From positions 1,984,001 to 2,048,000 of the forward strand of contig NZ_CP022282.1 of the NCBI RefSeq assembly GCF_002216065.1: DNA of 64,000 nt. Direction: 5' to 3'. Of the stretch, positions 41,087-63,726 are shown piece by piece. Every line of letters begins with the position of its first letter. Position 1 is the stretch's first letter. The DNA is from Chryseobacterium sp. T16E-39 (GTDB lineage: Bacteria > Bacteroidota > Bacteroidia > Flavobacteriales > Weeksellaceae). The notes beneath the pieces were generated by a model. That model was not told the DNA's origin. It ran no database searches and saw only the letters and a program-made list of their open reading frames with translations. The position numbers were made by a program, and so were the translations under genes.

Positions 41087-41285
41087 AAAAAACCCCGTAG
41101 AAAGTTCTAGCAATAATGATTATTAAATTTACATACCTCCGAAGAGCGGACTAGTACCCATTAACTGAGTCATTGTAATGTTCGTAAAGATGTACTGCAA
41201 CTAATTAATGTTGCTCCAATTAAACCCTATTTAATAACAGAATTAATGAATTTGGAACTACTAATTAAATTACTTATCTTGTGGC

Positions 41286-41364
41286 TTGAATGCGTGATGC
41301 TCCTTGTAACGGGAATATCGCATTGCAAACTTTTATCCTGCAAAAGCAGTAAGACCGAAGTCCT
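41286..41364 (-). ncRNA. Candidate RT-associated structured RNA
   Basis: The ~330-bp spacer upstream of the RT has no gene but several hairpins read on the RT strand. They are a 5-bp stem with a UUCG tetraloop (41351-41364), a CTGC-TTTT-GCAG hairpin (41338-41349), and a longer stem closing with AATGCG/CGCATT (41289-41324), extended outward by TTG/CAA around a bulge. A further CCG-CGG hairpin is at 41139-41149. Position fits the template or guide RNA of DRT or retron systems. True ends are unknown. Confidence 0.5.
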
Positions 41365-41442
41365 GTAGTCCTGACTAGATGTAAAAAATCAACTTCCTAC
41401 GAGTACATCAAATATAGGAAAATAAAAAACTAAACAACTACT

Positions 41443-42633: not shown

Positions 42634-42649
42634 CTTTAAACTGAACAGT

Positions 42650-44014: not shown

Positions 44015-44026
44015 TCTAATCTTTGA

Positions 44027-46342: not shown

Positions 46343-46359
46343 TTTATTTTATATATTCT

Positions 46360-47346
46360 TTATTTGATTGAGATTAGCTCATTTATAATGTCATTTTTGA
46401 ATTTACTAAAGATTCTTTTATGGTAATTCTCTTTTTCTAACTCAATTCCAAAAATCAAGCGATATCTTTCTTCCTTTGAAATATCTATATCCGGAAACAT
46501 TTTTTCCAAAAGAATATTTAGATAATTAGTAGAATATTTATATCGTAAATCAATTAAATCCTGCAGTTCCTTATCTGAATGCCCACGATAAATTAATTCT
46601 AAATTTAGTGCTTTGACAGTATCAATACCTTTGCTATTTAAAAATGAGTTGTTTTTAAATATAATTTGATTTTTAGTAATATCTAGAGGTAAATAACTAA
46701 ATGAATAACTAGAAGCTATATTGTGATCAATATATGGATGTAAATGATTTGATAAGTTCAAGTTATCAGTACTTTTTATTGTATTACAAGTTGCGCAAGA
46801 TGGTACTAAATTGTAAAATGAAAGAGCTAACATAGGAAAATCTTGTTTAGGAAACCAATGGTCAAATTGAGGAACCATACCTTTTCCTTTTTTTTCATAG
46901 ACAAAAATATACTCTCTATTGCAATAATTACAAGTATGTTGATTTAATAGGTTAGCAAGTAAATAATTTTTTCTCTCATTTAAAAACCAATTTGTGTATC
47001 CTGAATCAACAAATAATTTTTCTGCTTGTTCTTTAAATTCCGTAAGTGACCTTCCAGGAATTGCAGCATAAGTGCGAGATTTTAAATCCATAATTTCAAT
47101 TAATCTCGCTGGTTTTCCAGTAATAATTTCTTTTATTTCGTCAATAGAAAATAAATCGCAAAACTCTGTTTCTAAACCACTCCGTTTTTTAGAAGAAGAG
47201 CAATATTTACAAGAAGTCTCACCACAAGTATGACCTTCTGGATTTCTAATTAAATTGTACCTTCCTTTTAGTTTGATAGCCAGCCAACATACTGCTTCAT
47301 TACTATAGGTCTCTAAAGCATTAACTTGTTCCCCTAGATAATTCAT
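46360..47346 (-). CDS. HNH endonuclease, Septu PtuB-like
   Basis: 328 residues. Zinc-HNH core: HTCNYCNREY, then QFDHWFPK with the metal-binding Asp-His, NLVPSCATCNTIKS. An extra cysteine cluster near the N-terminus (CGETSCKYCSSSKK) may bind another zinc. Its start overlaps the ATPase stop by one base (TAATG), showing translational coupling. ATPase plus HNH is the Septu (PtuAB) arrangement; this HNH is longer than a minimal PtuB. Confidence 0.8.
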   Translation of the reverse strand: MNYLGEQVNALETYSNEAVCWLAIKLKGRYNLIRNPEGHTCGETSCKYCSSSKKRSGLETEFCDLFSIDEIKEIITGKPARLIEIMDLKSRTYAAIPGRSLTEFKEQAEKLFVDSGYTNWFLNERKNYLLANLLNQHTCNYCNREYIFVYEKKGKGMVPQFDHWFPKQDFPMLALSFYNLVPSCATCNTIKSTDNLNLSNHLHPYIDHNIASSYSFSYLPLDITKNQIIFKNNSFLNSKGIDTVKALNLELIYRGHSDKELQDLIDLRYKYSTNYLNILLEKMFPDIDISKEERYRLIFGIELEKENYHKRIFSKFKNDIINELISIK

Positions 47347-49181
47347 TATTCTCTAATATTAATATTTAAACCTGAGCTTCTCGCAATTTCCATTATCTGT
47401 CTTCTTGCTTGTTCTTTATCTATTTCGTCAGAGAAAATTTGATAATACATTTCATTCATTTTATATTTGAGTAAAGGTTCATCTACCAGATCAATAATTT
47501 GTTTGTGATCTTCTTTTGGTGATTCAAGAATCCATCTATTTTCTTCAATAATCTTGTTTAACTCCTGTTTTTTTTGTTCTAAAATAAGATCTTCAACCTG
47601 ATCAAACAAATCAACTTCCTTCTGTAATAATTTATATCTCAACCATAATATAGCTAGATCAATCTTCTCTTTTGCAAAATCTCCCATTAAGCCGTCTGAT
47701 AAAAAAAAACTATCTGCTAATAAATCATGAATGTTTGCCCCAAAAGTCTCCTTGTTATCGTTACTGATGATTGTCTCACCTGCTCCATTCTCATCTAAAA
47801 AAACAACATTTTGCTTAGGAATATCAGACAAAGTTAAGGGATCATGAGTGGTAAAAATAATTTGAATATTAGATTGAGTAGTAGAAAAATTGAAAAACAA
47901 TGGAAGACTTTTAACTATAGAATTGACAAATTTTTTCTTCCATTCCGGATGATATCCTAAATCAGCTTCATCTAAAAGTAAAACGTATTCCTCTTGAATT
48001 TGTTCTTTCTCAATATTTTGAACACGCTCATATATTACTGAATAGAAATTTAATAATGCATTTTCTCCTGAACTAAGTTTTCGATCGGTAGATTTAATTC
48101 CTAAAAAATCGCTTACTCTAACCTTTTGATTATAATAATTACTAGTTAGATGATTTACAATTTCTTTTTGTAAAGCTTGTATTTTTTCCAGATTAATATA
48201 TTCTGTATTAAAAGCTTTATTATTGACCGAATTATAATCTTGAATTTCATCTACTATCTCGTAGATAAATTTAAAAAGTTCTAAAACTTGTGTATTAAAA
48301 ACATGCTTAGCTTTTTCTGGAGGTTGAGCATTAAAATGAACTTTTGCATTTGTAACGAAATGATTAAATAATTCTACCGCAGTGTAGTCAACTATTTCCA
48401 ACTCATTTATTACGCCCTCGCTCAAGAAAGTATTATTTCTTTCCATTAAGTTAACTGTAATTGTTAAAAAAGAAGAAATGAGGTTCCGCTTGAAAATATA
48501 TGCATTTATTTCATGTTGATTCAGTACATTCTCTCCTTCCATTCGACGGATTCCCACCCATTTGTCTATTTCTTCATCACATTTACTAAGAATATCTAAT
48601 ATTATTTGTCTAAATTGGTAGGGCGTATTATGAAACGAATCTCTAGAAATCTCCATCTTATTAGAACCTCGCAAAATTACAGTGCCTACTTCGAACTTTA
48701 ATCCCTCAAAAATATTCGAAAACACTGAATGCTTTTCTCGCAAACTTGACGATAAAAAACTCATCTGTCTTGCAGTACTTAAATGCTCTAAATCTTGCTT
48801 TGGATTTAAACTCCATCCGTTTTCATTAGGTTCTTTTTCATCATCTATTATATTTTCTAGATCCCTTCTAAGAATTGTGTCTAAAGAAATATCATTAGGA
48901 TCAACATCAAAATTATAATTGTCAATATAATCTAAGTGCGGACTGAAATAAATTATATTATCTTCATAGTTATATGGAAATGTGCTTATTCTACGATTCT
49001 TTATATATCGTAAAATACTAGATTTTCCTGTTCCATTTTTGCCAACAATAGCCGAAACCATAGAAATATTTTCACCCCAAAAATCTCCATTTATTTCACC
49101 TAAATTTATTTCAATTTCTCTCTCCTCATTACCAAAGACGTGAGGTATTTCGTAAGCATAAAATTTAATTTGTTGAATCAT
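47346..49181 (-). CDS. SMC/ABC-like ATPase, Septu PtuA-like
   Basis: 611 residues. Walker A GKNGTGKS at 47-54; ABC signature KLSSGENALLNFYSV; Walker B VLLLDEADLGYHPEW; H-loop IIFTTHDPLTLSDI. A ~250-residue insertion between Walker A and signature forms the helical arm. It would regulate or recruit the coupled HNH nuclease upon phage infection. First gene of a four-gene block (ATPase, HNH, McrB, McrC). Confidence 0.85.
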   Translation of the reverse strand: MIQQIKFYAYEIPHVFGNEEREIEINLGEINGDFWGENISMVSAIVGKNGTGKSSILRYIKNRRISTFPYNYEDNIIYFSPHLDYIDNYNFDVDPNDISLDTILRRDLENIIDDEKEPNENGWSLNPKQDLEHLSTARQMSFLSSSLREKHSVFSNIFEGLKFEVGTVILRGSNKMEISRDSFHNTPYQFRQIILDILSKCDEEIDKWVGIRRMEGENVLNQHEINAYIFKRNLISSFLTITVNLMERNNTFLSEGVINELEIVDYTAVELFNHFVTNAKVHFNAQPPEKAKHVFNTQVLELFKFIYEIVDEIQDYNSVNNKAFNTEYINLEKIQALQKEIVNHLTSNYYNQKVRVSDFLGIKSTDRKLSSGENALLNFYSVIYERVQNIEKEQIQEEYVLLLDEADLGYHPEWKKKFVNSIVKSLPLFFNFSTTQSNIQIIFTTHDPLTLSDIPKQNVVFLDENGAGETIISNDNKETFGANIHDLLADSFFLSDGLMGDFAKEKIDLAILWLRYKLLQKEVDLFDQVEDLILEQKKQELNKIIEENRWILESPKEDHKQIIDLVDEPLLKYKMNEMYYQIFSDEIDKEQARRQIMEIARSSGLNINIRE

Positions 49182-49414
49182 TTATTATTAGTTTGTTTTT
49201 TAATTTAATTATTGGTTATTAATTTTCAAAACACGTAGGATTTGAATATATTTTGGCTTCCTAGATATTAATCTTTTACATATTAGATTCAAACCATTTG
49301 AATGAAAAGATTTTAGTGTTTATATAAAGTTTGATTCTGCAAAGATTGAATATTTACAAAGCTATCAAATACAATAGAGAGCAACTTACGGAAAACCGTA
49401 AATAATATTAAAGA

Positions 49415-52272
49415 TTACGAAACCACCCCATCAATAAACACATCCACAAAATTTTGCACCTTCTGAATAATTCTCTTACCAATATTATTACGCTCAGTAA
49501 TTTTTGGTTTTATTTCAAGTAGCTTTAAAGTATCACTTATTTTAGGAGTTTTGGAAGTAAAAAGAAAATCATCGATAGCATCTCGGAATCTGTCTTTATT
49601 CAAAGATTCTTCTGTAGCAATTTTTTCAAAAGCAGAGTTTTTTTCTTTATTCCAGTATTTTTCAAATTCTTCATTAACGTTGTCCCCACCAGAAATATGG
49701 GGAAGGTTTTCTTCTATGAATTTCTCTATCAGTTCTTTTTTGCTTCGAAGCTTTGCATCGCCGGAAAGAATATCTCTGATTTCTTTTTTCTTTTGTTCTA
49801 GCTTATTGCCTTTCAGATTAGAATCAGTCAAATTGGCTAGTAATGAAAGAATATAACTTACATTGATTTCATCTCGATGAATCAATTCTAGCTCAAAGTC
49901 GACGTCATCCAGAATACTTACTCTTCCTTCGCCTCCCTGCGGTCTTGTTTCTTTCCAAATATCTAAATACTTGCTTTTATACCCATCAAATTCATATTCG
50001 GTCATCTCCAATTTATCAAACTCAAAATCGGCAAATGATTTTAAAACGTTTAAAACACGCATCACTTCACGGAAAGCAGTGATAAATTCAAATTTTTCCT
50101 GTTCGGTTTGATAACTGTTGACACTGTCAATTTCAGGGGCAACAATCTTTAATGTATTTAAAGCAGCGTTGAAAAGTTCAATATAGTCTTCAATCGGTAG
50201 AATGATAATTTCCTGAATCGCTTCTTTATTGGAAAATAAAGTTACAGCATCATCAGTTGCAGACTTTAGATTTCTAAAACAAACAATATTTCCTTGTGAT
50301 TTTTTTTCGCCTAACAATCTGTTGGTACGGGAGAATGCTTGGATTAGTCCGTGATATTTAAGATTTTTATCAACAAATAAAGTGTTCAATTGTGGACTGT
50401 CAAATCCAGTCAGAAACATATTCACAACAATAATTAAATCAACTTCTTTATTGCGGACTCTTTTAGCAATATCATTATAATAATTATAAAAACTTTGGCT
50501 GTCTTTAGTTGTAAAGTTGGTTCCAAACATTTCATTGTAATGACCAATATATCTTTCCAACACATTTCTGCTATGAGAATCTCCGTATTGTGCCTGCGGT
50601 TCTGCAACCATTCCAAACTCAGGTTCATCATAGATTCCATTGGCATCCTTAGACTCTTCATTTGTCCCATAGCTGAAAATAGTAGCAATCTTTAATTGAT
50701 GCTTGCCTTCCTCTTTTTTCTTTTGGAAAAGGTCATAATATTTCTGTAAAACATCAATACTGCTTACACAAAACATTGCATTGAAAGTACTGTTATGCGT
50801 TTTTCTCCCGTATTCCGCGATGAGATAATCCGCAATTTTTTCAAGACGTTTCGGGCTTTCCAGAAGTTCTTGTGTATCGATTGCTTCAACATCCGTATCA
50901 ATATAAGTATTGCTGCCTTCTTTTTCTTTGTATCTTCCGACATATTCCACAGAAAACTTCAAAACATTATCATCCCGAATGGCATCTGTAATCACATATT
51001 TATGCAGGCAATCTTCAAAAAGTCTATTCGTTGTTGCAGGAGCTCCGTCTATTTTCCCAATTGAATTAACTTCAGAAATCGGAGTTCCTGTAAAGCCAAT
51101 CATTTGGGCGTTCTTAAAGTATTTTTTAATATTCTGATGTGTATCTCCGAACTGGCTTCTGTGACATTCATCAAAAATAAAAACCACTTTCTTATCTTTC
51201 AGCTTGTCAATTTTATTGCCGTGCTTTTCCTTTGTAATGGCAGTATTTAACTTCTGTAAAGTGGTTACAATCAATTTTGTATTGTCTGAAAGTTGCTTAA
51301 CCAAATGAGCAGTATTTTCAGTGGCATCCACACTTCCTTTTTCAAAAGCATCAAATTCTTTTTGCGTTTGATAATCTAAGTCTTTTCGGTCAACCACAAA
51401 AACAACTTTTTCTACTTTAGGAATTTCTTTAAGGATTTGACTTGCTTTAAAAGACGTCAAAGTTTTCCCCGAACCTGTTGTATGCCAGATAAAACCGTTC
51501 TTATCGGTATTTCTTACTCTTTCAACAATTTTTTCAACCGCATAATATTGATAAGGTCGTAAAACCATCAGTATTTTATTCGATTCATTCAAAACGATAT
51601 ACTTGGTAATCATTTTAGCAATATGGCAAGGCTCTAAAAACGCAGGAGCAAAATGATCGAGTTGAGTTATGTTATTGTTGTGTTCATCAGACCAGAAGAA
51701 AGTTTGCTTAAAAGTTTGCTTTGCGTTGTTGGAATAATATTTTGTATTGACTCCGTTACTGATGATAAACAACTGAACGTAATTAAACAATCGACTTCCA
51801 GAATTGAAAGACTGATGATGATAGCGATTGATTTGATTGAAAGCCTCTTTCATTTCTAGACCGCGACGTTTCAGCTCAATCTGTACCAAAGGCAATCCGT
51901 TGATTAGGATCGTTACATCATATCTGTTTTTAAAGTTTCCTTCCTGAGCAATTTGATTTGTTACCTGAAACTGATTCTGACACCAATGGTCTTGGCTGAT
52001 GAATTCAATCCATTCGGAAGTACCATCATCTTTAAAAAAATGAAAACGGTCACGTAATGTTTTAGCTTTTTCAAAAACATTTCCTTTGGAAAGATGATTG
52101 AGGATTTTTTCAAACTCAGTATCTGAGAATGTTTTTTATTGTGAATTTCGAGCTGAGTCTTTAGATTTTTAATAAGGTCTGCTTCGTTACATATCGTAAC
52201 TTTTTTGTGACCTAACTGTTGTACTTGTTCTATTAATTTCTGCTCTAAAATATATTCCGGCTGACTTGACAT
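49415..52272 (-). pseudogene. hsdR: Type I restriction subunit HsdR, frameshifted
   Basis: A ~952-residue HsdR split by one missing base in a T6 tract (A6 on the coding strand) at 52132-52137. The first 46 codons from ATG 52272 (MSSQPEYILEQKLIEQVQQL) read in one frame; after the run, TFSDTEFEKILNHLSKGNV continues in the next. The PD-ExK nuclease motif (VQIELKRRG), Walker A (HTTGSGKT), DECH box (FDECHRSQFG) and helicase motifs (FTGTPIS, TGFDSPQL, QAFSRTNR) are intact. If the frameshift is real, the full-length restriction subunit is off while methylation may continue. Confidence 0.9.
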
Positions 52273-52372
52273 TCAGTTTTGAGTTTTGGTTAAAAACTTT
52301 GTCAGAAGTATGAGTTCTGACAAAGTTGTTTCAGTTTTCCCAAATGTAAGAAATAATCAATGATAACTACAA

Positions 52373-53299
52373 CTATTTTAGCGCTTTAAACATCTGGTCA
52401 ATTACTTTTTTCTTTTGTTCCAGATTGGGATGAACGTATAAGTTCAAAGTTGTACTAATATTGGAATGACCGAGCAAAACACTCACTGTTTTATAGTCGC
52501 ATTTGCTTTCGATACATCGGGTTGCAAAACTGTGTCTCAGACCGTGAAACTTGATATCAGGAATTTCTAAAAATTTCATCAGGTTTTTATAATAACTCCG
52601 GTAAGTTCTTGGTTCTGTAGGCTTAGAATCATTGGTTAAAACATAGAACGCAGGATTTACAATTTTCTTAAAAGGTTTCAGCATTCTCAACAAATCCCTG
52701 CTCATCGGAATTTCACGGATTGAGTTTTTGGTTTTGGGTGTATCAATCAACAATTCTGTTTTTCTTTCTCCATCTTCAATGACATAGATTCTTTGAATGG
52801 TTCTTCGGATATTAATAATACCGTTATCCGTATCAATATCTTCCCAAGTCAATGCACAAATCTCACCAATTCGCATTCCCGAACAAAGACAGATATAAAC
52901 ACCCAAATTTCTAAAAGTAAAATGCTCCTGAATATAGCTCATCACTTTTTTCTGATGTGTTCTGCTCAAGACTTCAATCGTATGGGTTTCCCTAACCGTA
53001 GGATATTGCACATTAAAATTGATAAACTCAATCCACTTATTTTTTGCACCAAACTTCAGCACCATTTTCAAAACAATGAGAATATCTTTGATGCTTTTCT
53101 GGCTCAATCCCTGCTCCAGTTTTTTAAATACAAACTTTTGTACCTCATCATCCTCAATCTCAGAATAATCTTTGAATACAGGTAATAAATGATTTTCCAG
53201 CAACAGCACATAAGCCGAAAAAGTTGACTTTTTCACATACAGCTTTTTATCATTCTTCCATAGTTCAGCGATTTCTGCTAAAGTCTTCTTTCTTGTCAT
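52373..53299 (-). CDS. Tyrosine recombinase, probable hsdS invertase
   Basis: 308 residues. N-terminal SAM-like core-binding domain and catalytic domain with Arg143 (CSGMRIGE), His252 and Arg255 (HGLRHSFATR), His278 (LLGHSN) and nucleophile Tyr288 (TLNLYVHP). It sits between hsdR and the silent hsdS and beside inverted repeats shared by both hsdS copies. By analogy to invertible type I systems in Bacteroidota and streptococci, it should invert the hsdS segment. No integrative-element role is suggested by position. Confidence 0.85.
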   Translation of the reverse strand: MTRKKTLAEIAELWKNDKKLYVKKSTFSAYVLLLENHLLPVFKDYSEIEDDEVQKFVFKKLEQGLSQKSIKDILIVLKMVLKFGAKNKWIEFINFNVQYPTVRETHTIEVLSRTHQKKVMSYIQEHFTFRNLGVYICLCSGMRIGEICALTWEDIDTDNGIINIRRTIQRIYVIEDGERKTELLIDTPKTKNSIREIPMSRDLLRMLKPFKKIVNPAFYVLTNDSKPTEPRTYRSYYKNLMKFLEIPDIKFHGLRHSFATRCIESKCDYKTVSVLLGHSNISTTLNLYVHPNLEQKKKVIDQMFKALK

Positions 53300-53388
53300 A
53301 ATTTTTTTGATTTTATAATTAATTATTTGAAATCTTAAAAGGTATGAAATAAAGATTGAGGATTATAAATCCTTAGAGTGTAACACAG

Positions 53389-53420
53389 TTTCCTAATTTA
53401 CGATTTCCGGGGTTTGAAGG
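53389..53420 (+). repeat. hsdS inverted repeat 1, silent copy
   Basis: 32 bp, TTTCCTAATTTACGATTTCC then GGGGTTTGAAGG, identical in reverse complement to 55723-55754. It encodes FPNLRFPGFEG near the HsdS start. Confidence 0.95.
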
Positions 53421-53430
53421 TACGTGGGAA

Positions 53431-54522
53431 GTGAAAAAATTGGGTGAAATTGCAGAAGTAAAAACTGGTAGTAAGGACACTCAAAATAAAGTTGATAATG
53501 GAATGTATCCATTTTTTGTTAGATCCAATACTATTGAGAAAATAAATACGTATTCATATGATGGTGAAGCAATTTTAACTTCTGGTGATGGTGTTGGAGT
53601 AGGAAAGAATTTTCATTATATAAATGGAAAATTTGATTTCCACCAAAGAGTTTATTCAATTAGAAATTTTAAGATAGGCTATGATGGAAAATACATATAT
53701 AATATTTTCTCTGAAAAATTTTATGATAGAGTAATCCGATTAAGTGCAAAAAATTCCGTTGACTCTGTTAGAATGAATATGATTTCAGAAATGAAAATCT
53801 CATTTCCGATGTTTAATGAACAGCTGAAAATTGCTTCATTTCTAACTAAGATAGGAGATAGAATTCAAACCCAAAAGAAAATAATTGAGGATTTACATAT
53901 AACAAAAAAAGAAATATCTTTTAAGCTTTTTAAAGAAGGATTTAACTCATCAGAAACAAAAAAAGAAAATTTCCAAAAATTAGGAGACCTAACCTATATT
54001 GTGAGTAAAAAAAATAAGGAAAACCTCAAACTACCAGTTTATTCAATCAACAATAAAAAAGGATTTTTAAGTCAGGCTGAACAGTTTGAAGGTATTGATA
54101 GTGACGAGAGAGGCTATGATATTTCGTTATACAAAATAATAGAGAAAGAAACCTTTGCTTATAATCCTGCAAGAATCAATGTTGGTTCAATCGGTTATAG
54201 TAGAAATTTGGAAAATATTATAATTAGTTCTTTGTATGTCTGTTTTAAAACAACAGATGCAGTTGATGATGAGTTTTTATTTCAATATCTACGAACTGAT
54301 ATTTTCAGAAAAGAAGTTTTAAGAAATGTAGAGGGAGGCGTTAGAGATTATTTATTCTATGAAAATTTTTCAAGAATAAAAATTAATCTGCCAGATTTGA
54401 AAGAACAAATTAAAATAGCTAAGCTTTTATCAAAATTTGATGAGAAAATAACCCTAGAAAACGAATTACTTATTCAATACGTAAATCAGAAAAAATATTT
54501 ATTACAAAATCTTTTTGTTTAA
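53431..54522 (+). CDS. hsdS: Silent HsdS cassette
   Basis: Continuous frame from just after a TAG at 53374-53376 to 54522, so the coding part includes repeat 1 but has no ATG in front; the first usable start is a GTG at 53431. It codes for two target recognition domains separated by a conserved helix (DRIQTQKKIIEDL), and ends LLQNLFV. Its domains differ from those of the expressed copy on the other strand. It is a store of alternative specificities put behind the true start by inversion. Confidence 0.85.
   Translation: MKKLGEIAEVKTGSKDTQNKVDNGMYPFFVRSNTIEKINTYSYDGEAILTSGDGVGVGKNFHYINGKFDFHQRVYSIRNFKIGYDGKYIYNIFSEKFYDRVIRLSAKNSVDSVRMNMISEMKISFPMFNEQLKIASFLTKIGDRIQTQKKIIEDLHITKKEISFKLFKEGFNSSETKKENFQKLGDLTYIVSKKNKENLKLPVYSINNKKGFLSQAEQFEGIDSDERGYDISLYKIIEKETFAYNPARINVGSIGYSRNLENIIISSLYVCFKTTDAVDDEFLFQYLRTDIFRKEVLRNVEGGVRDYLFYENFSRIKINLPDLKEQIKIAKLLSKFDEKITLENELLIQYVNQKKYLLQNLFV
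53860..53888 (+). repeat. hsdS inverted repeat 2, silent copy
   Basis: 29 bp starting AGAATTCAAACCCAAAAGAA, encoding RIQTQKKII in the central conserved helix; identical in reverse complement to 55216-55244. Confidence 0.92.
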
Positions 54523-54544
54523 TAGATCAAGATTTTTAAGATAA

Positions 54545-54580
54545 CCTTTTCAATGTTTTGAAAATTGAAAAGGCTTTTTT
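54545..54580. terminator. Terminator between converging hsdS copies
   Basis: Perfect ten-bp stem CCTTTTCAAT / ATTGAAAAGG with a 9-nt loop, followed by CTTTTTT on the plus strand. Being inside the invertible segment, it ends whichever copy is read. Confidence 0.8.
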
Positions 54581-55215
54581 CATTAAACAAACAAATTAGC
54601 TAAAAGAAACTTTTTCTGAAGTTCTAACTTTTTTAGAACTTGTTTTTCCGTTTCTATTTTCTCTTGATAAGAAGAAAGAAAATTAGCAATTTTAGTTTGC
54701 TCATTTAGGGAAGGTAAAGGTAAACTTATATCAGAAAAATATGCATAACTAATCATTTTACCATCTCTTATACCTTCTAATTTTTATTAAGTTGCTTTAT
54801 ATAAGATTCAGATTTAAAATAATATTTATAAAAATAACTATTTATTTCAGTGTTATTCCTTAAAATTATATATGCCGGACTACATATACCTTTATATTCA
54901 GAATATTCAATACCTCCTTGAAATGATCTTAAACTAATTATAAAGTCGCCTTTCTCGACAATTTTATAACTTTCCACGCTTTTATCAGTCACTGAAATTT
55001 GAAAATCAATCAAATCTCTAGGAATAGCTCCATATTCTTGAGTTACGGCTAAAATTGGTAATTCTGAATTATGATTTTTATTTGAAATATTTGAAAAAAC
55101 TTCATTTCCTTTTTTTCTTTCCCAACAAGGAAATTCTGATAAGTCAGTATTTTTAAATCTAATTCTTTTATTAAACAATTTACAGCCAACTCCTTTAATT
55201 AAGGTTTCTAATTGT

Positions 55216-55244
55216 TCAATTATTTTCTTTTGGGTTTGAATTCT
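55216..55244 (-). repeat. hsdS inverted repeat 2, expressed copy
   Basis: Reverse complement of 53860-53888, 29 of 29 bases, in the central conserved region of the expressed gene. Confidence 0.92.
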
Positions 55245-55722
55245 TTCATCTAAAAGCTTGAAAAGTGAAGAAATTTTTTCTTGCTCTTCTATATTTGGTA
55301 TAGCAACTATGACATTCGAAAAAGTTGTTTTATTTATTATTGGTACAGCTTGTTCTGCTGAGAGAGATTTTATTTTAAGTGAGGAATATTCTAACAATGA
55401 AAAAACAAAATCATCATCATTACCAACTGGAATAACAGAATTAATTTGCTGATTGGTAATTGAATCTTCAGTTGCTTGACCTACTTTACCAATTGTAGAA
55501 CCAATACATACAAAATAGGTACTTCCTCTTCTAATTTTTCTGCCTTTATTGAATCCTTTTTCTGTTAATGTCGTTTTCGTTTTAAAAACATACCTATTTG
55601 ATTGTAAATCAGTTGGAGAAACAAATAGGCGATTTCCATTATAAAAAGTAGTTTCATCTGTTGCAGGAGTTGAACCAGTTATTATATTTCCCAAACTTTC
55701 TAAAGTTGTTTTCCTCCATTCC

Positions 55723-55754
55723 CCTTCAAACCCCGGAAATCGTAAATTAGGAAA
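55723..55754 (-). repeat. hsdS inverted repeat 1, expressed copy
   Basis: Reverse complement of 53389-53420, 32 of 32 bases, 13 codons after the expressed start. Confidence 0.95.
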
Positions 55755-55839
55755 ATTCTTTACACTTTTATTTTCTTCTGTCATCTTGATCATTTTTTTG
55801 TTAAAATTCTAAGCCTTGAGGATTTTGCTAAGTCAAAAA

Positions 55840-57408
55840 TTAGCTGACTAATCCCAATTCTTTCAAATAAACTTCAATTTCAGAATCCAGTTGAGAACGT
55901 TTTGCTTCAAGCATCTTAATTTCTGCCATTACCGCCTGAATATCAATTTCATCTTCTTCCTCAAAAGTATCAACATAGCGAGGAATATTTAAGTTGTAAT
56001 CATTATCTGCAACTTCCTGTAAAGTCGCTTTATGACTGAATTTTTCAGTTACTGTACGATTTTGGTAGGTGTCTACTATTTTATTGATGTGCGAGTAAAG
56101 CAAGACATTTTGGTTTTTCTGCTTTTCAAACTCTTTGCTTGCATCTACAAACAAAATATCTTCTTCTGCTTCACGGCATTTTTTAAAGATTAAAATACAG
56201 GTCGGAATACTTGTTCCAAAGAAAATATTAGCAGGTAAACCAATCACAGCATCTAAATAGTTTTTCTCTTTAATCAGATATTTTCTAATAATCAATTCGG
56301 CAGCACCACGGAATAAAACACCGTGAGGCATTACTACTGCCATAATTCCGTTTTCATCCAAATGATGAATCATATGTTGGATAAAAGCAAAATCTGCTTT
56401 TGAAGAAGGTGCTAATTTTCCATATTGTGAAAACCTTTCATCCAAAAGGTGAAGCTCATTGGCGCTCCATTTTGCAGAGAAAGGAGGATTAGCTACAATG
56501 GCATCAAAAGTCTTGTCAAGATGTTGAGGCTTCTCCAATGTATCTTCCTGACGGATGTCGAAATTGCTGTAATTGACACCGTGAAGAATCATATTCATCC
56601 TTGCCAAGTTGTACGTGGTACGGTTCATTTCCTGACCATAGAAATCGCTAACTTTCGCTTCACGGGCAACTCTTAAAAGCAACGAACCACTTCCGCACGT
56701 CGGGTCATATACGGATTTTAACTGTGATTTTCGACTCGTAACAATTCTTGCTAAAATAGTAGAAACCTGTTGTGGAGTATAGAATTCTCCTGCTTTTTTA
56801 CCAGCTCCACTTGCAAATTGTGCAATCAGATATTCATAGGCATCACCTAAAACATCAGCATTAGTATCTGAAAGATTGAAATCAATATCATCCAAATGAT
56901 AAAGAACTTTGGAGATTAAAGTGTTTTTTTCGTCTTCTGTTTTTCCTAATTTCGAGGAAGTCAAATCAAGGTCTTCAAAAAGATGTTCAAAATCATCTTC
57001 ACTGTTCGTTCCAAGTGTTGATTGCTCAATATTATTAAGGATTTTAGAAAGTTCAGCCAAGATAAAATTAGATTTACCTTCCTGTTTCTGATGTCCTTTT
57101 TTAGCAATATTACTGAAAAGTTCTGATGGTTTCAGGAAATATCCTAAATCTTCAACGACTTCTTCATAAATAGCTTCAACAATTTCTTTTCCTGCTTCAC
57201 AATTTTCATCAACATCATTGTAATCAACATCTTCTCCCGAATCTAACAAAATTTTATTAGCCGTAAAATGTATTTTCTCTGAAAGATACTTATAGAAAAT
57301 AAATCCTAAAATATAATCACGGAATTCATCCGCATCCATTTTACCACGTAAAGTATTCGCTATATTCCAAAGTTGCTGTTGCAACTGACGTTTCTGTTCT
57401 TCTGACAT
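55840..57408 (-). CDS. hsdM: Type I DNA methyltransferase HsdM
   Basis: 522 residues. N-terminal HsdM domain (ADEFRDYILGFIFYKYLSEK), SAM-binding motif DPTCGSGSLLL, and catalytic NPPF in AIVANPPFSAKW (N6-adenine methylation). With HsdS it methylates, and with HsdR it restricts. First gene of the HsdM-HsdS block on the minus strand; no frameshift seen. Confidence 0.96.
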   Translation of the reverse strand: MSEEQKRQLQQQLWNIANTLRGKMDADEFRDYILGFIFYKYLSEKIHFTANKILLDSGEDVDYNDVDENCEAGKEIVEAIYEEVVEDLGYFLKPSELFSNIAKKGHQKQEGKSNFILAELSKILNNIEQSTLGTNSEDDFEHLFEDLDLTSSKLGKTEDEKNTLISKVLYHLDDIDFNLSDTNADVLGDAYEYLIAQFASGAGKKAGEFYTPQQVSTILARIVTSRKSQLKSVYDPTCGSGSLLLRVAREAKVSDFYGQEMNRTTYNLARMNMILHGVNYSNFDIRQEDTLEKPQHLDKTFDAIVANPPFSAKWSANELHLLDERFSQYGKLAPSSKADFAFIQHMIHHLDENGIMAVVMPHGVLFRGAAELIIRKYLIKEKNYLDAVIGLPANIFFGTSIPTCILIFKKCREAEEDILFVDASKEFEKQKNQNVLLYSHINKIVDTYQNRTVTEKFSHKATLQEVADNDYNLNIPRYVDTFEEEDEIDIQAVMAEIKMLEAKRSQLDSEIEVYLKELGLVS

Positions 57409-57592
57409 ATTTATAAATCCTTAATCTAAGACCTCAAAGATAAAAAAAATCACCACCAAAAGATTACGACATCCCATATTACAAATAAAATAAATAAAAA
57501 TAAGAAAGTACAATCAAAATTCTGCTACTGCAGATCTTAATTTCTTTAGTTAAAACTGTTAATTTTTATAAAAATTTATTCAATAATTTTTT

Positions 57593-57817
57593 TTACTTTA
57601 GTTTAAAATCAAAAAGTTCCTGTGGATGTACATCTAGCCCCTTCGCTAACTCTTGAATAGTAGACATTCTTAGGTCTACTTCTCCTTTTTCTATTTTACT
57701 GATATTACTATGATCTACATCACATTTTTGAGCCAACTCCCTATAACTTAAATTCAGCTTTTTCCTGAACACCTCAACTCTCTTACCAAATGCTATTCTA
57801 AATTCTGATCTATCCAT
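57593..57817 (-). CDS. XRE-family HTH regulator
   Basis: 74 residues, a single Cro/C1 helix-turn-helix (LSYRELAQKCDVDHSNISKIEKGEVDLRMSTIQELAKGL). It precedes hsdM on the same strand with ~180 bases between, and diverges from the sigma-Cas12f operon. It may control either; the size resembles restriction-modification controller proteins. Confidence 0.85.
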   Translation of the reverse strand: MDRSEFRIAFGKRVEVFRKKLNLSYRELAQKCDVDHSNISKIEKGEVDLRMSTIQELAKGLDVHPQELFDFKLK

Positions 57818-57905
57818 TTCGATTAACTTTGAATAAACAAAATGATGAGATTTTAATAAAAATTTGTAGTCGAATTAACCTACATTAAAAAAAAATGTTT
57901 TATAT

Positions 57906-57937
57906 TTGCTAAAGAAGTTACAATAAAGGTAACTTTG
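57906..57937 (+). promoter_or_regulatory. Promoter of the sigma-dCas12f leader
   Basis: TTG at 57906-57908, 21 bases, then TAACTTTG (57930-57937), a match to TAnnTTTG. An overlapping TATATTTG lies at 57901-57908. Transcription should start near 57944 and include the long hairpin and the sigma gene. Confidence 0.6.
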
Positions 57938-57979
57938 CAATAGTTCAAAATATTAATCGAAGCTATTGCTTAGATTCTC

Positions 57980-58085
57980 GACTAGAAAACTGGTAATTTT
58001 TATGTGTGCGGGAAGATAAGTAAATTAGCTCACGACCGCGGCGTGGGCTCACTTATCGTACACGGGTATACCAGTACCTCTAGTC
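57980..58085 (+). ncRNA. 106-nt nested hairpin upstream of the sigma-dCas12f operon
   Basis: Five stems nest in one arm pair: GACTAG/CTAGTC, ACTGGTA/TACCAGT, GTGTGC/GTACAC, GATAAGT/ACTTATC and AGCTCACG/CGTGGGCT around loop ACCGCGG, with short internal loops. It is more GC-rich than its surroundings. It lies in the predicted 5' leader, 115 bases before the sigma start. It could be a guide-RNA scaffold for the adjacent Cas12f homologue, a regulatory leader, or an element end. Structure is seen; function is inferred. Confidence 0.6.
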
Positions 58086-58200
58086 AATGAGCTGAGTTCC
58101 ACGCCTTTATTTTAGGCAAAATGCAGTGAATGAATATTTTGATGGTGTAGAGAATTCTTAAAAATCTAAGCAGTTCCTTCAGCAATAATTTTGCTAAAAT

Positions 58201-59025
58201 ATGCTGCTTATGAAAAGAACAAACTCTCCACCCCGAAAGCTGAGCAATCTTCAGCTGTACGAACTGCTGAAAAAAGGTAATCCGACCGCTCTCGAACACA
58301 TTCATTTGCGCCACAAGAGACTTCTTTTCTGGATTGGATTACAGGTGTTGAAAGATGATTTTGTAGTGGACACTATTGTTCAGGATACCTTCCTAAAATT
58401 GTGGCTACACCGCGGCACCATTGAATCGCCTGATCATATTACCGGCTTTTTACGCTTTGTGATGAAAAGGGATTGTATCGCATATGTGACTGCGCCCAGA
58501 AATAAATTTACCCGCCTGATGGCTTCTCTTGATAGTTTTGAGAATTATCAGGAGTATCTTGCAGGCTACGATCCTTTGAAAGATAAAGAGTATTTACATA
58601 GTCAGGAATCTGATCAAAACAAATTCGATGAAATCACAAAGGTGTTACCCGTTCTGAATCCTAAAAGAAAACACCTGATAGAACTTTGCCTCGAATACGG
58701 ATTCCAGTACAAGCCTATCGCAGAAGCAATGGGAAGCAGCGTGACAGGCATTAGTATGGAGGTGGGCAAAGCAATTGATGAACTTCGGAAAATCCTTAAA
58801 GTCACATCGTTTGAGCAGCCAGAGGAAAAAACTGCACTTAAAAAAGAGCAGTTAAAACAACTCACCAATCAGCAGCTCGAGATTGTCAAAAGACGGTTTG
58901 AACAGAAATCCTCTTTTGCGGTGATTGCAAAAGAACTCAAACTACCCGAAAAGGAAGTCCATCGGGATTTTCTGTATGCCTTTCAGCATCTTCAAAATCA
59001 TAACCAATCTGAAATATCGCTTTGA
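58201..59025 (+). CDS. ECF-type sigma factor associated with dCas12f
   Basis: 274 residues from ATG 58201 (ATG 58210 is an alternative). Sigma region 2 spans ~15-95 (FVVDTIVQDTFLKLWLHRG), region 4 ~140-200 (KRKHLIELCLEYGFQYKPIAEAMGSSVTGISMEVGKAID). A second region-4-like helix-turn-helix occupies ~215-265 (LTNQQLEIVKRRFEQKSSFAVIAKELKLPEKEVHRD). No anti-sigma gene is adjacent. The next gene, one base after the stop, encodes a nuclease-dead Cas12f. Recent reports describe dCas12f-sigma pairs in Flavobacteriia that place RNA polymerase by guide RNA; this matches that layout. Confidence 0.88.
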   Translation: MLLMKRTNSPPRKLSNLQLYELLKKGNPTALEHIHLRHKRLLFWIGLQVLKDDFVVDTIVQDTFLKLWLHRGTIESPDHITGFLRFVMKRDCIAYVTAPRNKFTRLMASLDSFENYQEYLAGYDPLKDKEYLHSQESDQNKFDEITKVLPVLNPKRKHLIELCLEYGFQYKPIAEAMGSSVTGISMEVGKAIDELRKILKVTSFEQPEEKTALKKEQLKQLTNQQLEIVKRRFEQKSSFAVIAKELKLPEKEVHRDFLYAFQHLQNHNQSEISL

Positions 59026-59026
59026 A

Positions 59027-60121
59027 ATGGAAAAGTCTACAATAACCCTGACGCGGAAAATTCAGCTGGTGATTGATGTTCCAGCCGATTGTAAAAGCGA
59101 AATGTGGGAAAAACTATACCGGTATCAGAACCGCTGTTTCCGTGCAGCGAATTTGATTGTTTCCCATCTGTATGTACAGGAAATGATTAAGGATTTCTTT
59201 TACCTCACCGAAGAGATTCAATACAAGCTAGCTGATGAAAAAAAAGATGAAATGGGAATCTTCGACCGTTCGAAAACAAACACGACGGCACGCTTAGTCT
59301 TTGACAGATTCAAGGGAGAAATTCCCACCGATATTCTGGGATGCCTGAACAATACAATCCAGTCCACCTTTTCCAAAAACAAAGCCGACTATTGGCAGGG
59401 ATCAAAATCCTTAATGAATTATAAAAAAGACATTCCCATTCCACTTCCGGTCAAATGCATCAGCAAAATGAAATATGATCCTGATAAGAAAGCGTTCAGC
59501 TTCAATATGTTTGCGATTCCTGTCAAGACTTACTTAGGGAGAGATTTCTCGGATAAACATTTGGTACTAGAACGGCTTTTAAGAGAAGAAATCAAGTTAT
59601 GCAACTCACAGGTTCAGCTGAAAGACGGTAAGATCTTTTGGCTCGCCGTCTTTGAATTTGAAAAGGAAAACCACGGTTTAAAACCCGAAATCATTGCTGA
59701 AGCATCTCTGTCATTAGAACATCCAATCGTGGTAAAAGCCAATAATGTGCGAATGAATATAGGCTCAAAAGAAGAATTTCTCTACAGAAGACTTGCAATT
59801 CAGGCAAGTAATAAAAGGATTCGAGCCGGAGTCGCTTATTCCCGTTCCGGAAATGGAACCAAACGGAAACAGAAGGCACTGAAAAAAACAGAAAATTTAG
59901 AAAAACGTTTTGTCAGTCATCATCTTCATCTGTACAGCCGTAAGCTGATTGATTTCTGCATCAGGCAACAGGCGGGCACCCTGATCCTTAAAAATCAGGA
60001 AGACAAAATAGGAATTGCAAAAGAACAGGAATTTGTGCTTCGCAACTGGAGCTATTATGAACTGCAGACCAAAATAAAATACAAAGCAGAAAAAGCCGGT
60101 ATCGAATTGATTATCGGATAG
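59027..60121 (+). CDS. Nuclease-dead Cas12f homologue (dCas12f)
   Basis: 364 residues from ATG 59027, shorter than active Cas12f. The N-terminus TLTRKIQLVID starts a TnpB/Cas12-type wedge. Compared from memory with Un1Cas12f1: RSGNGTKRK with RAGHGAKNK, AGTLILKNQ with VGTVQMENL, YYELQTKIKYKAEKAGIELI with AEMQNKIEFKLKQYGIEIR. The RuvC-I Asp is Lys237 (PIVVKANN) and the RuvC-II Glu is Lys322. The protein ends right after GIELIIG, so the zinc finger and RuvC-III Asp are absent. It should bind an RNA and target DNA without cutting. Coupled to the sigma gene, so it likely directs that factor. A TldR-like repressor is the alternative. Confidence 0.9.
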   Translation: MEKSTITLTRKIQLVIDVPADCKSEMWEKLYRYQNRCFRAANLIVSHLYVQEMIKDFFYLTEEIQYKLADEKKDEMGIFDRSKTNTTARLVFDRFKGEIPTDILGCLNNTIQSTFSKNKADYWQGSKSLMNYKKDIPIPLPVKCISKMKYDPDKKAFSFNMFAIPVKTYLGRDFSDKHLVLERLLREEIKLCNSQVQLKDGKIFWLAVFEFEKENHGLKPEIIAEASLSLEHPIVVKANNVRMNIGSKEEFLYRRLAIQASNKRIRAGVAYSRSGNGTKRKQKALKKTENLEKRFVSHHLHLYSRKLIDFCIRQQAGTLILKNQEDKIGIAKEQEFVLRNWSYYELQTKIKYKAEKAGIELIIG

Positions 60122-60314
60122 CTAAAAAAATGAGGGTGCTTGTATACCCGTAGGGTGAGGTTTTGAACACTCACTAAATACTAAAAGTATATACAATGGC
60201 GTGGGCTATTTTTAAGGAAAATAAGAACCTCTTTTAAATAGCATAAAAGAGGTCGGATATTTTTAATGATTTTTAAAAATAAGTCTTATGCAACGGCTAC
60301 CACTGTTAGTTGTA
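60122..60314 (+). ncRNA. Candidate guide RNA downstream of dCas12f
   Basis: Gene-free and structured. Stems: TGTATAC (60141-60147) with GTATATACA (60187-60195, two extra bases), GTGAG/CTCAC (60155-60159/60170-60174), ACCTCTTTT/AAAAGAGGT (60227-60235/60245-60253) and ATTTTTA/TAAAAAT (60259-60265/60274-60280). ATGCAAC at 60288-60294 resembles the 3' handle of some Cas12f repeats, so 60295-60314 would be a guide. It shares GGCGTGGGCT (60198-60207) with the upstream hairpin (58040-58049). Tentative. Confidence 0.45.
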
Positions 60315-60320
60315 GTTCTT

Positions 60321-60980
60321 TTATTCGAAAATATTGGGAATTATCTTATATTTAATTTGAACTTCAAAATGGCTGCAACTTCTTTGTGATATATTCTTAA
60401 ACATAAATGAAGTGCCAAATTTTTCTGTTAAGAATTCTTCAAAACATTTATAAATTGTTCCTTCTCCTGAATTATAAATATTGGAAGCCTTAATTCTATC
60501 ATTTTCCTCTCTTATTTTTCCAATCAGCACCACATCATGATAGACTTCAAAAATTGGATTTATAGCAGAAATGGAATCGCTTATATTGAAAGGTGTTCTT
60601 TCATAAAATTCGCATTCTTCAAAATCTTTTTGAACTTTTAGTTCTACATTAACTTTTTCCTCACTTAATTTTAAAGTCACTTCTCGAATGAGTTCTTGTG
60701 GAACTTTAACTGTTTCAAAAACTTCAAACACTCCATTAAATTCATCACTTTCGTCAATAAGTGAGGCTTTTAAAACGAAATATTTTCCAATTTCTTCAAA
60801 TAAATAATTAGATAAGACTCTTTTAATAATCTTATTTGAATTTTCAAATTTTCTAAATTCTTGCTCGTTTTTAACTTTAACATAGCAAATTAAATCCTTA
60901 AAATTTTTTAACTCATAAGAAATATGAAAATGAATATCTTTATTCTCAATATTTACAATTTTTATTTCGGTTTTAGTCAT
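60321..60980 (-). CDS. Protein of unknown function
   Basis: 219 residues from ATG 60980; a TTG at 61031 is less likely. No signal or membrane segments; alternating beta strands such as IHFHISYELKNFKDLICYVKV and HFEVQIKYKIIP near the end. Not recognised. It converges on the sigma-dCas12f operon and its 3' end borders the candidate guide RNA. Confidence 0.55.
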   Translation of the reverse strand: MTKTEIKIVNIENKDIHFHISYELKNFKDLICYVKVKNEQEFRKFENSNKIIKRVLSNYLFEEIGKYFVLKASLIDESDEFNGVFEVFETVKVPQELIREVTLKLSEEKVNVELKVQKDFEECEFYERTPFNISDSISAINPIFEVYHDVVLIGKIREENDRIKASNIYNSGEGTIYKCFEEFLTEKFGTSFMFKNISQRSCSHFEVQIKYKIIPNIFE

Positions 60981-61283
60981 TTTTTTAACAGTTTTATTAT
61001 AAAATTGCAGACAACTTTTAGCTTCACCCAATGCGTAAATTTGATTTATATAAATTGTTTAAAGCTATTTCTGATGCTAATATAAATTTTATTTTTTTAA
61101 TTTCATGAGCAATAACATACAAAAATATAAATCTTCACTTTAATTTGAATTACCGAATATTTTACTTACAAAATCAAACATTCTAGCCAGATTGATTGCT
61201 TCCCCACATCCTTACTTTCTAGAATTCTTGCTTCCTTAATAACTATCATTCAAAAGAGATTACTCTGCAATAGGTCGCGGTTG
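60981..61283. other. 303-bp gene-free spacer
   Basis: AT-rich spacer between the relaxase and the unknown gene. I see no gene, strong hairpin or repeat. Confidence 0.4.
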
Positions 61284-62444
61284 TTAGAGTCTTTTTCTCT
61301 TTCTTGTATTTTGAATTGGAATATCCTCAACCGCATAATTTGTACTGTTATTTCCGAATTGTAATAAAGAGAAAAGCTGATTAACTATCTCAAGGTCTTT
61401 AAAAATCTCATTGAAGGCAGCAAAAGGAATGCTGTTTTCCTGAGAAATTTTTTGTACTATTTTTTCCATTTCCGTTATGAGCTTTTGTTTATCTGTTCTG
61501 TCAAGATGTGGACTTCTAAATCTTGCAAATTTGATTTCCTTCTGTAGAGTATTAATTACAGAATCCAGATATTTTTTCTTTTCAGAAGCAAATACGGTTG
61601 GGCTGGATAATAGCACAGAATTTTTGGTTTTGAAAAGATGAACTTGCTTTTTTAAATCATCGACCTTTGTGTTGAGTTCAGTAATATTTTTTGATTTAGA
61701 TTCCAGTTCAGTTATATTCTTTAGGATTGTGCTTTTATACGTTCGAAAAGCTCTTTCATAATTCTCAATGGTTTTGTCAGTCTTAATTTTTTTAAAACCT
61801 AAAAAATCATTTTCCTTCACAACCAGCTGATCTGATTTTTTTGAATTCATCTCAGATTTCATCAAATCATACTTTTCTTCCAAAACTTTGAGATCTTCTT
61901 CTTTCTGCTGAATCTTAAACTCAATCGCTTCCAATCTTCCTTTGGAACCGGAAATTCCTCTTTCCATATTCAGGCATTCTGCTGTCAGATCCTGCATTTT
62001 TGAATAATGAAAGGATTGGTGTTTAAGTGTTTTTCCTGTTTTCAGATCCTGCCAGTCAGCTACCAAATGAGCGTGGTAATTGGGTTTCCATTCTTTCGTG
62101 TCTTTATCAGTGTGTCCTTCGTCTTTATGAATGGCGATCTGGAATACACGGATATCCAATTCTTCTTCCAGTCTCTTTGCTAAGTTTTGAAGTTCTAGCA
62201 TCGTTGTGTTCTCTTTGATGACAACGACCGCTTCCCGAACTGGCATTGCATTCTTCTGTAATTTTCTTCCGGACTTTTCTTTGCAATATGCTTCTATATT
62301 TTGGATTCTATCAGCTATTTTCTGTTCTATCCAGTATTCATTCTTTGGCGTCAGATCTTTACGGATGTAATCAAAAGTTTTCTTCCTGAAATTATGGGTT
62401 TCCGAATCGGACTTAACAACTTTGAAATTAATAGAGGTCTTCAT
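61284..62444 (-). CDS. MobV/Pre-type relaxase
   Basis: 386 residues. The N-terminal relaxase has the metal-binding motif IHKDEGHTDKDTKEWKPNYHAHLV (paired HxxE/HxH) and family segment NMERGISGSKGRLEAIEFKIQQ. Residues ~170-290 are coiled coil (LKVLEEKYDLMKSEM). It nicks oriT and pilots a strand during mobilization. It lies beside an oriT-like hairpin cluster and a primase gene, so the region is an integrative mobilizable element. Confidence 0.82.
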   Translation of the reverse strand: MKTSINFKVVKSDSETHNFRKKTFDYIRKDLTPKNEYWIEQKIADRIQNIEAYCKEKSGRKLQKNAMPVREAVVVIKENTTMLELQNLAKRLEEELDIRVFQIAIHKDEGHTDKDTKEWKPNYHAHLVADWQDLKTGKTLKHQSFHYSKMQDLTAECLNMERGISGSKGRLEAIEFKIQQKEEDLKVLEEKYDLMKSEMNSKKSDQLVVKENDFLGFKKIKTDKTIENYERAFRTYKSTILKNITELESKSKNITELNTKVDDLKKQVHLFKTKNSVLLSSPTVFASEKKKYLDSVINTLQKEIKFARFRSPHLDRTDKQKLITEMEKIVQKISQENSIPFAAFNEIFKDLEIVNQLFSLLQFGNNSTNYAVEDIPIQNTRKRKRL

Positions 62445-62542
62445 TGCTTTTACATCTTTAAAGTTTTACACTTTTATTGTTTTATGCTTTTAAATTTTTG
62501 TTGAAGGTGGCTATAGTTATATTACGCAGCATTACTTTTTAT

Positions 62543-62742: not shown

Positions 62743-63726
62743 TCAGCGTTTCCTTTTAAAACCATTTGATTTTTTGATTTCCGGCTCCTGATCTCTCACT
62801 TGTTGTTTTTCCTGTTCTGGAAATTTTTCAGATAGTTTCCCTGCAATATTTGGCACATTATTTTTCATTCTCTGTATCAAAAATTCGTTGAGATCTTTAT
62901 GGTTGGAATAGATACCGGAATGATCTTTTGCTTCCGGAAAGAATTTTATGATCTCAGACCTGCATTTAATCCCGGCATTATCGTTGTCCAGAAAAAGATG
63001 GATATCAGGATAGTTTTTCAGATGTTCGATGGATTTGTTTAAAAGAGCAATGGAATTCATCACAAGAATATCTCCTGCAAAAGACTTTTGCAATTCGATA
63101 AAAGACAAGGCATCCAGAAAACCTTCAAAAACTGCTACACCTTTGACGTCTCTATCTTGAATATTTGATTTATTCTGACCATTGATGCTGAGATCTATTA
63201 GTGAAACATCCTTTTTCAACAATGAACCTTTGTAGAAAGCATTACGCAATTCAAAACCGCCAGATAAGTTCTCAAAACCAATGGCATAGAGTTTCTTATT
63301 GCCGATGGTAAATTGTACTTCTTTTATGTAATCATATACTTTAGGACTTAATCCACGTCCCTGCAGATATTGTTTCAGGTTTGGATTCTGGAGATCGAAT
63401 ATTTCATCTATTCTGTAATCTGGTTCTGACTTTTTAATCTGTTGTTGCTGATGAAAAGAAGAAAAATTTTGTTTTTGCGCCCAGTCCAGAACTTCATTGA
63501 CAGAAGTGTTCAAATATTTTTTCATAAAGTCGGTGTTATTCCCGCCGACACCTTCTGAATGAAGATACCATGAATTAATTCTCTTATTCAATTTGAAAGA
63601 GGCTTGAGATTCGATGGCAAAGGGGTTGAGATACCAAGCTTCTTTTTCATTTTGTTTCGTGGGAAGGTGTCCGAGAGAAAGGAGGACTTCTTCCAACGGG
63701 ATTGTATTAAATTGTTTGCAATTCAT
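62743..63726 (-). CDS. Toprim-domain primase
   Basis: 327 residues. The N-terminus is a reduced CHC2-like domain (WYLNPFAIESQASFKLNKRINSWYLHSEGVGGNN) without the zinc ligands; the toprim domain has VAVFEGFLDALSF (Glu) and IHLFLDNDNAGIK (the DxD pair). It would prime replication or single-strand conversion of the element. C-terminus is basic (GFKRKR). Confidence 0.85.
   Translation of the reverse strand: MNCKQFNTIPLEEVLLSLGHLPTKQNEKEAWYLNPFAIESQASFKLNKRINSWYLHSEGVGGNNTDFMKKYLNTSVNEVLDWAQKQNFSSFHQQQQIKKSEPDYRIDEIFDLQNPNLKQYLQGRGLSPKVYDYIKEVQFTIGNKKLYAIGFENLSGGFELRNAFYKGSLLKKDVSLIDLSINGQNKSNIQDRDVKGVAVFEGFLDALSFIELQKSFAGDILVMNSIALLNKSIEHLKNYPDIHLFLDNDNAGIKCRSEIIKFFPEAKDHSGIYSNHKDLNEFLIQRMKNNVPNIAGKLSEKFPEQEKQQVRDQEPEIKKSNGFKRKR

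Follow-up and report, generated by a model that had tools for sequence, protein, structure and literature searches.

A sigma factor and nuclease-dead Cas12f gene pair in Chryseobacterium sp. T16E-39 and the match of its short guide to structured leader elements

In the 64,000-nucleotide stretch of DNA analysed here (the window), an ECF-like sigma factor gene is followed by a gene for a nuclease-dead Cas12f (dCas12f) and by a guide-RNA-like gene, the short guide of which recurs in three structured leader elements of the same genome. We consider it probable, at roughly 0.7, that the locus is an RNA-guided transcription module, in which the guide would load dCas12f, the sigma factor would bring RNA polymerase and transcription would start downstream of the site in the element. 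The guide and its genomic targets are what this analysis contributes, the pair itself being of a known kind. In our reading of the sequences, dCas12f-sigma would be an activator that is carried by an island, targets its own locus and has been added to a SusCD leader regulon older than itself.

The sigma factor, dCas12f and guide RNA genes

The open reading frame of the sigma factor (58201-59025, forward strand) ends one base before that of the 364-amino-acid dCas12f (59027-60121, forward strand), just as the original prediction had described. The ATG at 58210 is the likelier start of the sigma gene, because the relatives mostly match from residue 2 or later and because the upstream ATG is missing in most of the relatives displayed. 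The sigma factor had been called ECF-like, and it matched the ECF superfamily profile TIGR02937 above cut-off (E 7e-19) as well as the protein named 'RpoE' in PDB 9n9q (E 9.4e-74). The downstream protein had been assigned to Cas12f/TnpB. It matched the guided_TnpB profile NF040570 with an E of 8e-16, under the curated cut-off, and PDB 9n9c, named 'Nuclease-deactivated Cas12f', over residues 1-364 (E 3.7e-159, 533 bits), in agreement with that assignment.

To 9nzo ('Cas12f Effector') the 364-amino-acid protein aligned over residues 83-361. At the positions that we take to be the RuvC motifs of 9nzo, S227 stands in the column of the RuvC-I Asp and K322 in that of the RuvC-II Glu. The Lys predicted for the RuvC-II Glu was thus recovered, whereas the Lys predicted for the RuvC-I Asp was not, S227 and not K237 occupying that column. 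The alignment ended at residue 414 of the 506 of 9nzo, and about 90 residues of 9nzo have no counterpart in dCas12f; this missing C-terminal portion presumably contains the zinc finger and RuvC-III, which the protein had been predicted to lack. With S227, K322 and the C-terminal end gone, the catalytic RuvC residues appear to be lost in dCas12f.

The best PDB match of the RNA polymerase beta subunit of this genome was 9n9p/9n9q. Since dCas12f, the sigma factor and the beta subunit all have their matches in 9n9q, this entry contains a dCas12f, such a sigma factor and RNA polymerase. We take 9n9q, together with 9n9c, 9n9m and 9n9o, to be dCas12f-sigmaE RNA-guided transcription systems, and the similarity argues for the kind of system that had been proposed from the window. 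These matches confirm the pair and assign it to a kind already known.

A dCas12f match was found in 45 of the 173 genomes of the genus, in some of them as broken copies only. The sigma gene lay directly upstream of dCas12f in all 55 genus loci fetched, sigma or dCas12f being interrupted in a few; the dCas12f fragments G058:C3, G078, G094:C1, G103 and G111:C7 were left out of this locus set. In the sample of the order the match in G279 (E 2.4e-4, 27% identity) was excluded, which lowered the number of dCas12f-positive genomes from 24 to 23. The collections of plasmid and phage records gave one distant match each, at 28% and 27% identity.

Directly 3' of dCas12f lies a conserved non-coding unit, the guide-RNA-like gene (60131-60214, forward strand). 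Its three-stem scaffold is made up of a GGGTG...CACCC hairpin, a GTGAG...CTCAC stem and a third short stem, and is followed by the tail ATATACAAY (ATATACAAT in the window), the guide GGCGTGGGCT at 60198-60207 and a T-rich end. The predicted guide RNA would be about 85 nt long and would end in GGCGUGGGCU. By this organisation a putative guide RNA is encoded at the locus, and the conserved guide in it fits the guide-directed switch of the original prediction.

The tail was located in 54 of the 55 genus loci, the exception being L028, near a contig end, which has the scaffold without the tail. Over the 54 loci guide letters 1-8 were 98-100% identical, letters 9, 11 and 12 alternated between C and T (letter 11 was A once) and letters 21-45 had an identity of 35-69%; the script behind this count searched partly for GGCG, and when the units were extracted again without any guide letter in the search, 52 were obtained from L001-L055, all of them starting with GGCGT. 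The scaffold is nearly invariant within the genus, and therefore no stem pair with changes on both sides occurs there. When genera are compared, both sides of the third stem vary, and the stem was still paired in 73 of 75 units (64 of 68 loci). The exact scaffold-tail-guide string TATACARYGGCGTGGG was present in 43 of the 45 dCas12f-positive genomes of the genus and in none of the 128 dCas12f-negative ones; when one mismatch was allowed it was present in 53 of the 173 genomes, eight of them without dCas12f.

The guide is about 8-11 nt long and fixed within the genus, with a scaffold border that is uncertain by one base because the genus guide has an extra G before GCGTGGG. Being short and fixed, it would hard-wire the module to one leader family. 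A nuclease-dead TnpB relative is described in passages of PMC13418256 as functioning with guides down to 6 nt. No repeat-spacer array was detected beside the effector in 57000-62500 by a repeat search at the settings used.

Guide matches and the structured leader element

The 10-letter guide GGCGTGGGCT had four matches on the forward strand of the 4.87-Mb genome and none on the reverse strand; its reversed control had one match. The four copies are the guide gene and one site in each of three leader elements. The self target (window 58040-58049, genome 2042040-2042049, forward strand) is inside the element before the sigma gene. A second site, at genome position 286321 (forward strand), is in an element before a thioredoxin-like gene, SusC and SusD, of which the SusC matched TIGR04056 with an E of 4e-161, and a third, at 1011037 (forward strand), is in an element before the gene of a 176-amino-acid protein. 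All three are oriented toward the genes downstream. They are thus three candidate genomic targets upstream of genes, each with the 5' G that is presumably the target rule of dCas12f-sigmaE systems. The self site and the third site go beyond the original prediction, as does the finding, described below, that the element is much commoner than dCas12f.

The 176-amino-acid protein had no match in Pfam or NCBIfam, and the structure model of its family was poor (mean pLDDT 44.9). This family of proteins of about 176 amino acids (L068 8322-8852, P0121-P0240) is encoded after roughly half of the genus elements sampled, and the organisms named among the 120 matches listed are all Chryseobacterium.

The leader element in the window (covariance model R1) spans 57950-58106 on the forward strand and contains the guide target region. 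Elements of this kind are about 157 nt long, and 39 copies were aligned with a mean identity of 80%; RNAalifold predicted 40 pairs in this alignment, 11 of which had changes on both sides and were still paired. The innermost hairpin has the guide site as its 3' arm, and the element terminates in CCACGCC and a T-rich run. At 57905-57937 (forward strand) lies the sequence TTTG-N21-TAACTTTG with the inverted repeat AAGTTAC/GTAACTT, which is promoter-like by what we take to be the Bacteroidota promoter consensus. No Rfam family matched the leader element at gathering level, and with E values of up to 5 allowed, the element of the window gave mir-217 matches only, all sub-threshold. A whalefall-1 RNA (Rfam) was seen near the element copy in L207, at 1923-1975.

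Both G's of GGCG were invariant across the 39 elements aligned, and the base preceding GGCG varied. A wider count gave G at the first place in all 52 self matches and all 64 others, two of these matches being poor and the script having searched for a leading G. Some self elements have drifted, with GGCGTGAGCTC in 10 and GGCAAGGGCTC in 3 of the 52 matches; GGCGTGAGCTC would retain a G-T wobble with the guide and GGCAAGGGCTC would not. No element was detected in 16 of the 68 self-set loci, among them L149, which is no dCas12f locus, and L007, which has a fragment.

The covariance model detected the element in 152 of the 173 genus genomes, with one to eight copies each, and in 90 of the 395 genomes sampled from the order. 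Within the genus it was present in 44 of 45 dCas12f-positive and 108 of 128 dCas12f-negative genomes (Fisher p 0.016), and in the order sample in 23 of 23 dCas12f-positive genomes versus 67 of 372 others (Fisher p 1.5e-16); both tests ignore kinship and include the element beside the pair itself. The only dCas12f-positive genus genome without the element was G148, in which dCas12f is broken. With 152 of the 173 genomes, against 45 for dCas12f, the element is by far the more frequent of the two and must also work without dCas12f. The target letters were exact in 16 of 21 matches in dCas12f-negative genomes and in 17 of 23 (one a fragment) in dCas12f-positive genomes. With a similar conservation in the absence of dCas12f, the site is kept for another reason and the leader has its own function; the RNA hairpin is probably what conserves the site there, and the guide may have been borrowed from the leader element.

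All 43 genus elements away from dCas12f preceded, on the same strand, SusC/SusD (21 copies), the small family of about 176 amino acids (21 copies) or both (one copy). The 43 are the full-length copies from 40 fetched stretches, hand-picked from listed matches in 20 dCas12f-negative and 20 dCas12f-positive genomes, plus the second and third sites of this genome; a 76-nt second element match in L126 was dropped, which reduced 44 matches to 43. In another family (f3) SusC and SusD followed all 20 element copies fetched. The dCas12f loci of f3 are 60-63% identical and have the element before the sigma gene in 4 of 5 cases (L144-L147), and in L144 the first 17 letters of the guide agree at 16 positions with the element before the sigma gene of that locus, a G standing on the 5' side. 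The original prediction had named outer-membrane transport operons as possible targets; one of the three sites here, 22 of the 43 genus elements and 20 of the 20 f3 elements precede SusC-SusD, which is consistent with that suggestion.

Tandem guide-RNA units with differing guides were seen 3' of dCas12f in loci L141, L143, L145, L146, L147, L148 and L151 of other genera. GRGCGGTTTTC matched 11, 14, 9, 4 and 0 times in G304, G515, G488, G344 and G246, guide units included, and its reversed control 5, 4, 6, 3 and 3 times in the same five genomes; among the 20 of 38 matches examined, SusC similarity was found near one only, that of L155, on the opposite strand. The guide of L148 had 45 matches in G465 with at most one mismatch, versus 65 for its control. 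Three of its matches were exact, two in its own units and one in a gene whose sequence suggests citrate synthase; the region before the L148 sigma gene holds a partial match. As candidates for leader targeting the alternate guides were rejected, since no convincing target was found, and the support for the leader-targeting rule covers only part of the guides.

The guide site follows the promoter-like boxes at a distance of about 100 nt, which would also suit repression, with dCas12f bound inside the element and blocking the polymerase that comes from the element's own promoter, in the manner of nuclease-dead TnpB repressors. Such repression is reported for a nuclease-dead TnpB relative in passages of PMC13418256. 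Against it stand the sigma gene, adjacent in 55 of 55 loci, and a relative deposited together with a sigma factor and RNA polymerase, and we regard repression as unlikely.

The carrying island and its left border

The original prediction had placed the pair beside mobilization genes, and the neighbourhood agrees with this. A relaxase-like gene (61284-62444, reverse strand; weak Relaxase match, below cut-off) lies 1.2 kb downstream, and a Toprim/CHC2 primase-like gene at 62743-63726 (reverse strand; Toprim_2, E 3.8e-13). The relaxase-like gene recurred in eight other dCas12f loci, with 86-90% identity in seven and 60% in one, when 54 loci were compared, most of which span only about 1.5 kb on that side. 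The primase-like gene and an integrase, named from its sequence and located beyond the window, sit between the relaxase-like gene and dnaK, and the whole stretch up to dnaK is common to 4 of the 6 relatives compared. An attachment-site repeat beside dnaK was rejected, the search having given a 13-nt match only. Between the guide RNA gene and the relaxase-like gene there is an open reading frame of 236 amino acids (60321-61031) without Pfam match, which among L001-L055 was found in this genome only.

The left edge of the module is formed by a small HTH gene of the XRE/Cro-C1 type (57593-57817, reverse strand; HTH_3, E 1.1e-13), divergent from the element. A divergent open reading frame of 60-140 amino acids begins before the element in 92 of the 94 copies examined; the set comprised the window (57817-57905) and loci L001-L055, L067, L068 and L099-L151, and the frames tested with Pfam were those of the window and L067. 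The small divergent frames fall into 15 clusters in the 92 copies while the element and the promoter-like stretch, which is kept across the clusters, stay alike. The left modules thus appear to be exchanged at one border. The inverted repeat was rejected as an operator specific to the HTH type, because a single small-frame cluster occurs with several versions of the repeat and a single version with many clusters, the clusters being chained at 45% identity.

Defence genes were observed left of the element, at 39482-57817: a Drt2-like reverse transcriptase (E 6e-125), a PDC-M62A/B ATPase-HNH pair, a type I restriction system and a McrBC-like pair, the last read from the sequence and not from the profile library. 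A tyrosine recombinase beside two specificity-subunit genes on opposite strands (52373-55793) resembles invertible hsdS shuffling. Left of the second element of this genome (L067, 1037-6130) there are a type I restriction enzyme and a CD-NTase, and left of the third (L068, 3042-5793) a PDC-M62A/B pair.

The island could instead carry the pair as a passenger and use the element as a landing site or recombination border, with a guide match that mainly serves the expression of the pair itself. In most copies the element adjoins the pair, homology to 4 of the 6 relatives compared begins at the left border of the element (57892-57900), and the left neighbours vary, as the 15 clusters of small divergent frames illustrate. 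We hold this to be quite unlikely, because the guide is unchanged in copies such as L023, L027, L030 and L040, beside which no element was detected, and because 63 of 63 sampled elements away from dCas12f precede SusC/SusD or the small family.

Proposed mechanism and comparison with known systems

In the RNA-guided transcription that we propose, the guide RNA from the downstream gene would load dCas12f, and the complex would bind the DNA of the leader element at G|GCGTGGGCT, as the match suggests. The sigma factor would then recruit RNA polymerase, and by analogy with the solved relative transcription would begin past the site, presumably at a start set by its distance from the R-loop, and proceed into the genes that follow. 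At the self site, the anatomy points to a feed-forward autoregulation by which the pair would amplify itself; the other two sites would lead to the thioredoxin-SusC-SusD operon and to the gene of the 176-amino-acid protein. As the leader has its own promoter-like sequence and a CCACGCC/T-run that possibly terminates it, we propose that RNA-guided initiation would take place past this block. Weighing against the proposal are the many dCas12f-negative genomes that have the element with about equally conserved target letters, the self elements reading GGCAAGGGCTC, the self-set loci without a detected element, the lack of convincing targets for the alternate guides and the single match of the reversed control. 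Pairing of the guide, itself one hairpin arm, with the opposite arm of the transcribed leader, which would alter termination, draws on the guide site being the 3' arm of a conserved hairpin and on the CCACGCC and T-rich end of the element, but is very unlikely, given that the L144 guide extends past the arm of the hairpin, reading in the same sense as the element DNA, and that a polymerase complex is among the deposited relatives.

A wider reading is put forward tentatively, as somewhat less than an even chance. In Flavobacteriales the structured leader would join an interchangeable divergent HTH-type gene to SusC/SusD, and dCas12f-sigma would address this regulon and amplify itself, using one short fixed guide and a transcription start past the leader's own block; the part of the HTH gene as the edge of defence genes comes from three cases inspected. 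Under RNA-guided activation, a natural RNA-guided sigma factor would gain a concrete target list in one complete genome. The leader is much commoner than the sigma system, which shifts the question to the role of the leader without the sigma system. An island-borne switch of nutrient-uptake operons would, if true, be a clear case of mobile regulation passing from strain to strain.

Among known systems, dCas12f resembles the Cas12f nucleases and relatives in the PDB (9nzo, 9nzr, 7l48, 8j12), its residues of about 83-361 aligning to 9nzo and 9nzr. The locus differs from Type V-F CRISPR-Cas12f in the replaced catalytic columns, the missing C-terminus and the lack of an array in 57000-62500. TldR proteins are defined as repressing without a linked sigma gene, unlike the kind of locus described here, with its sigma gene linked in all 55 loci fetched. 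With TldR, as presented in passages of PMC13418256, the locus shares a dead RNA-guided protein, a short guide, a chromosomal regulatory target and a mobile element. According to the same passages TldR represses flagellin, and they name no sigma partner for it, the word 'sigma' occurring three times elsewhere in the text of PMC13418256. Neither the leader element nor its tie to a fixed guide turned up in a literature search, which covered sources other than the primary dCas12f-sigma papers. Closest are the dCas12f-sigmaE systems, with which the locus shares a full-length dCas12f, a sigma factor of the same kind, the adjacency of the two genes, a downstream guide-RNA-like gene and a G 5' of GCGTGGG, in accordance with the presumed 5'-G rule. 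It differs from them in the guide of the genus, which is short, fixed and apparently aimed at a structured leader that includes the region upstream of the pair itself.
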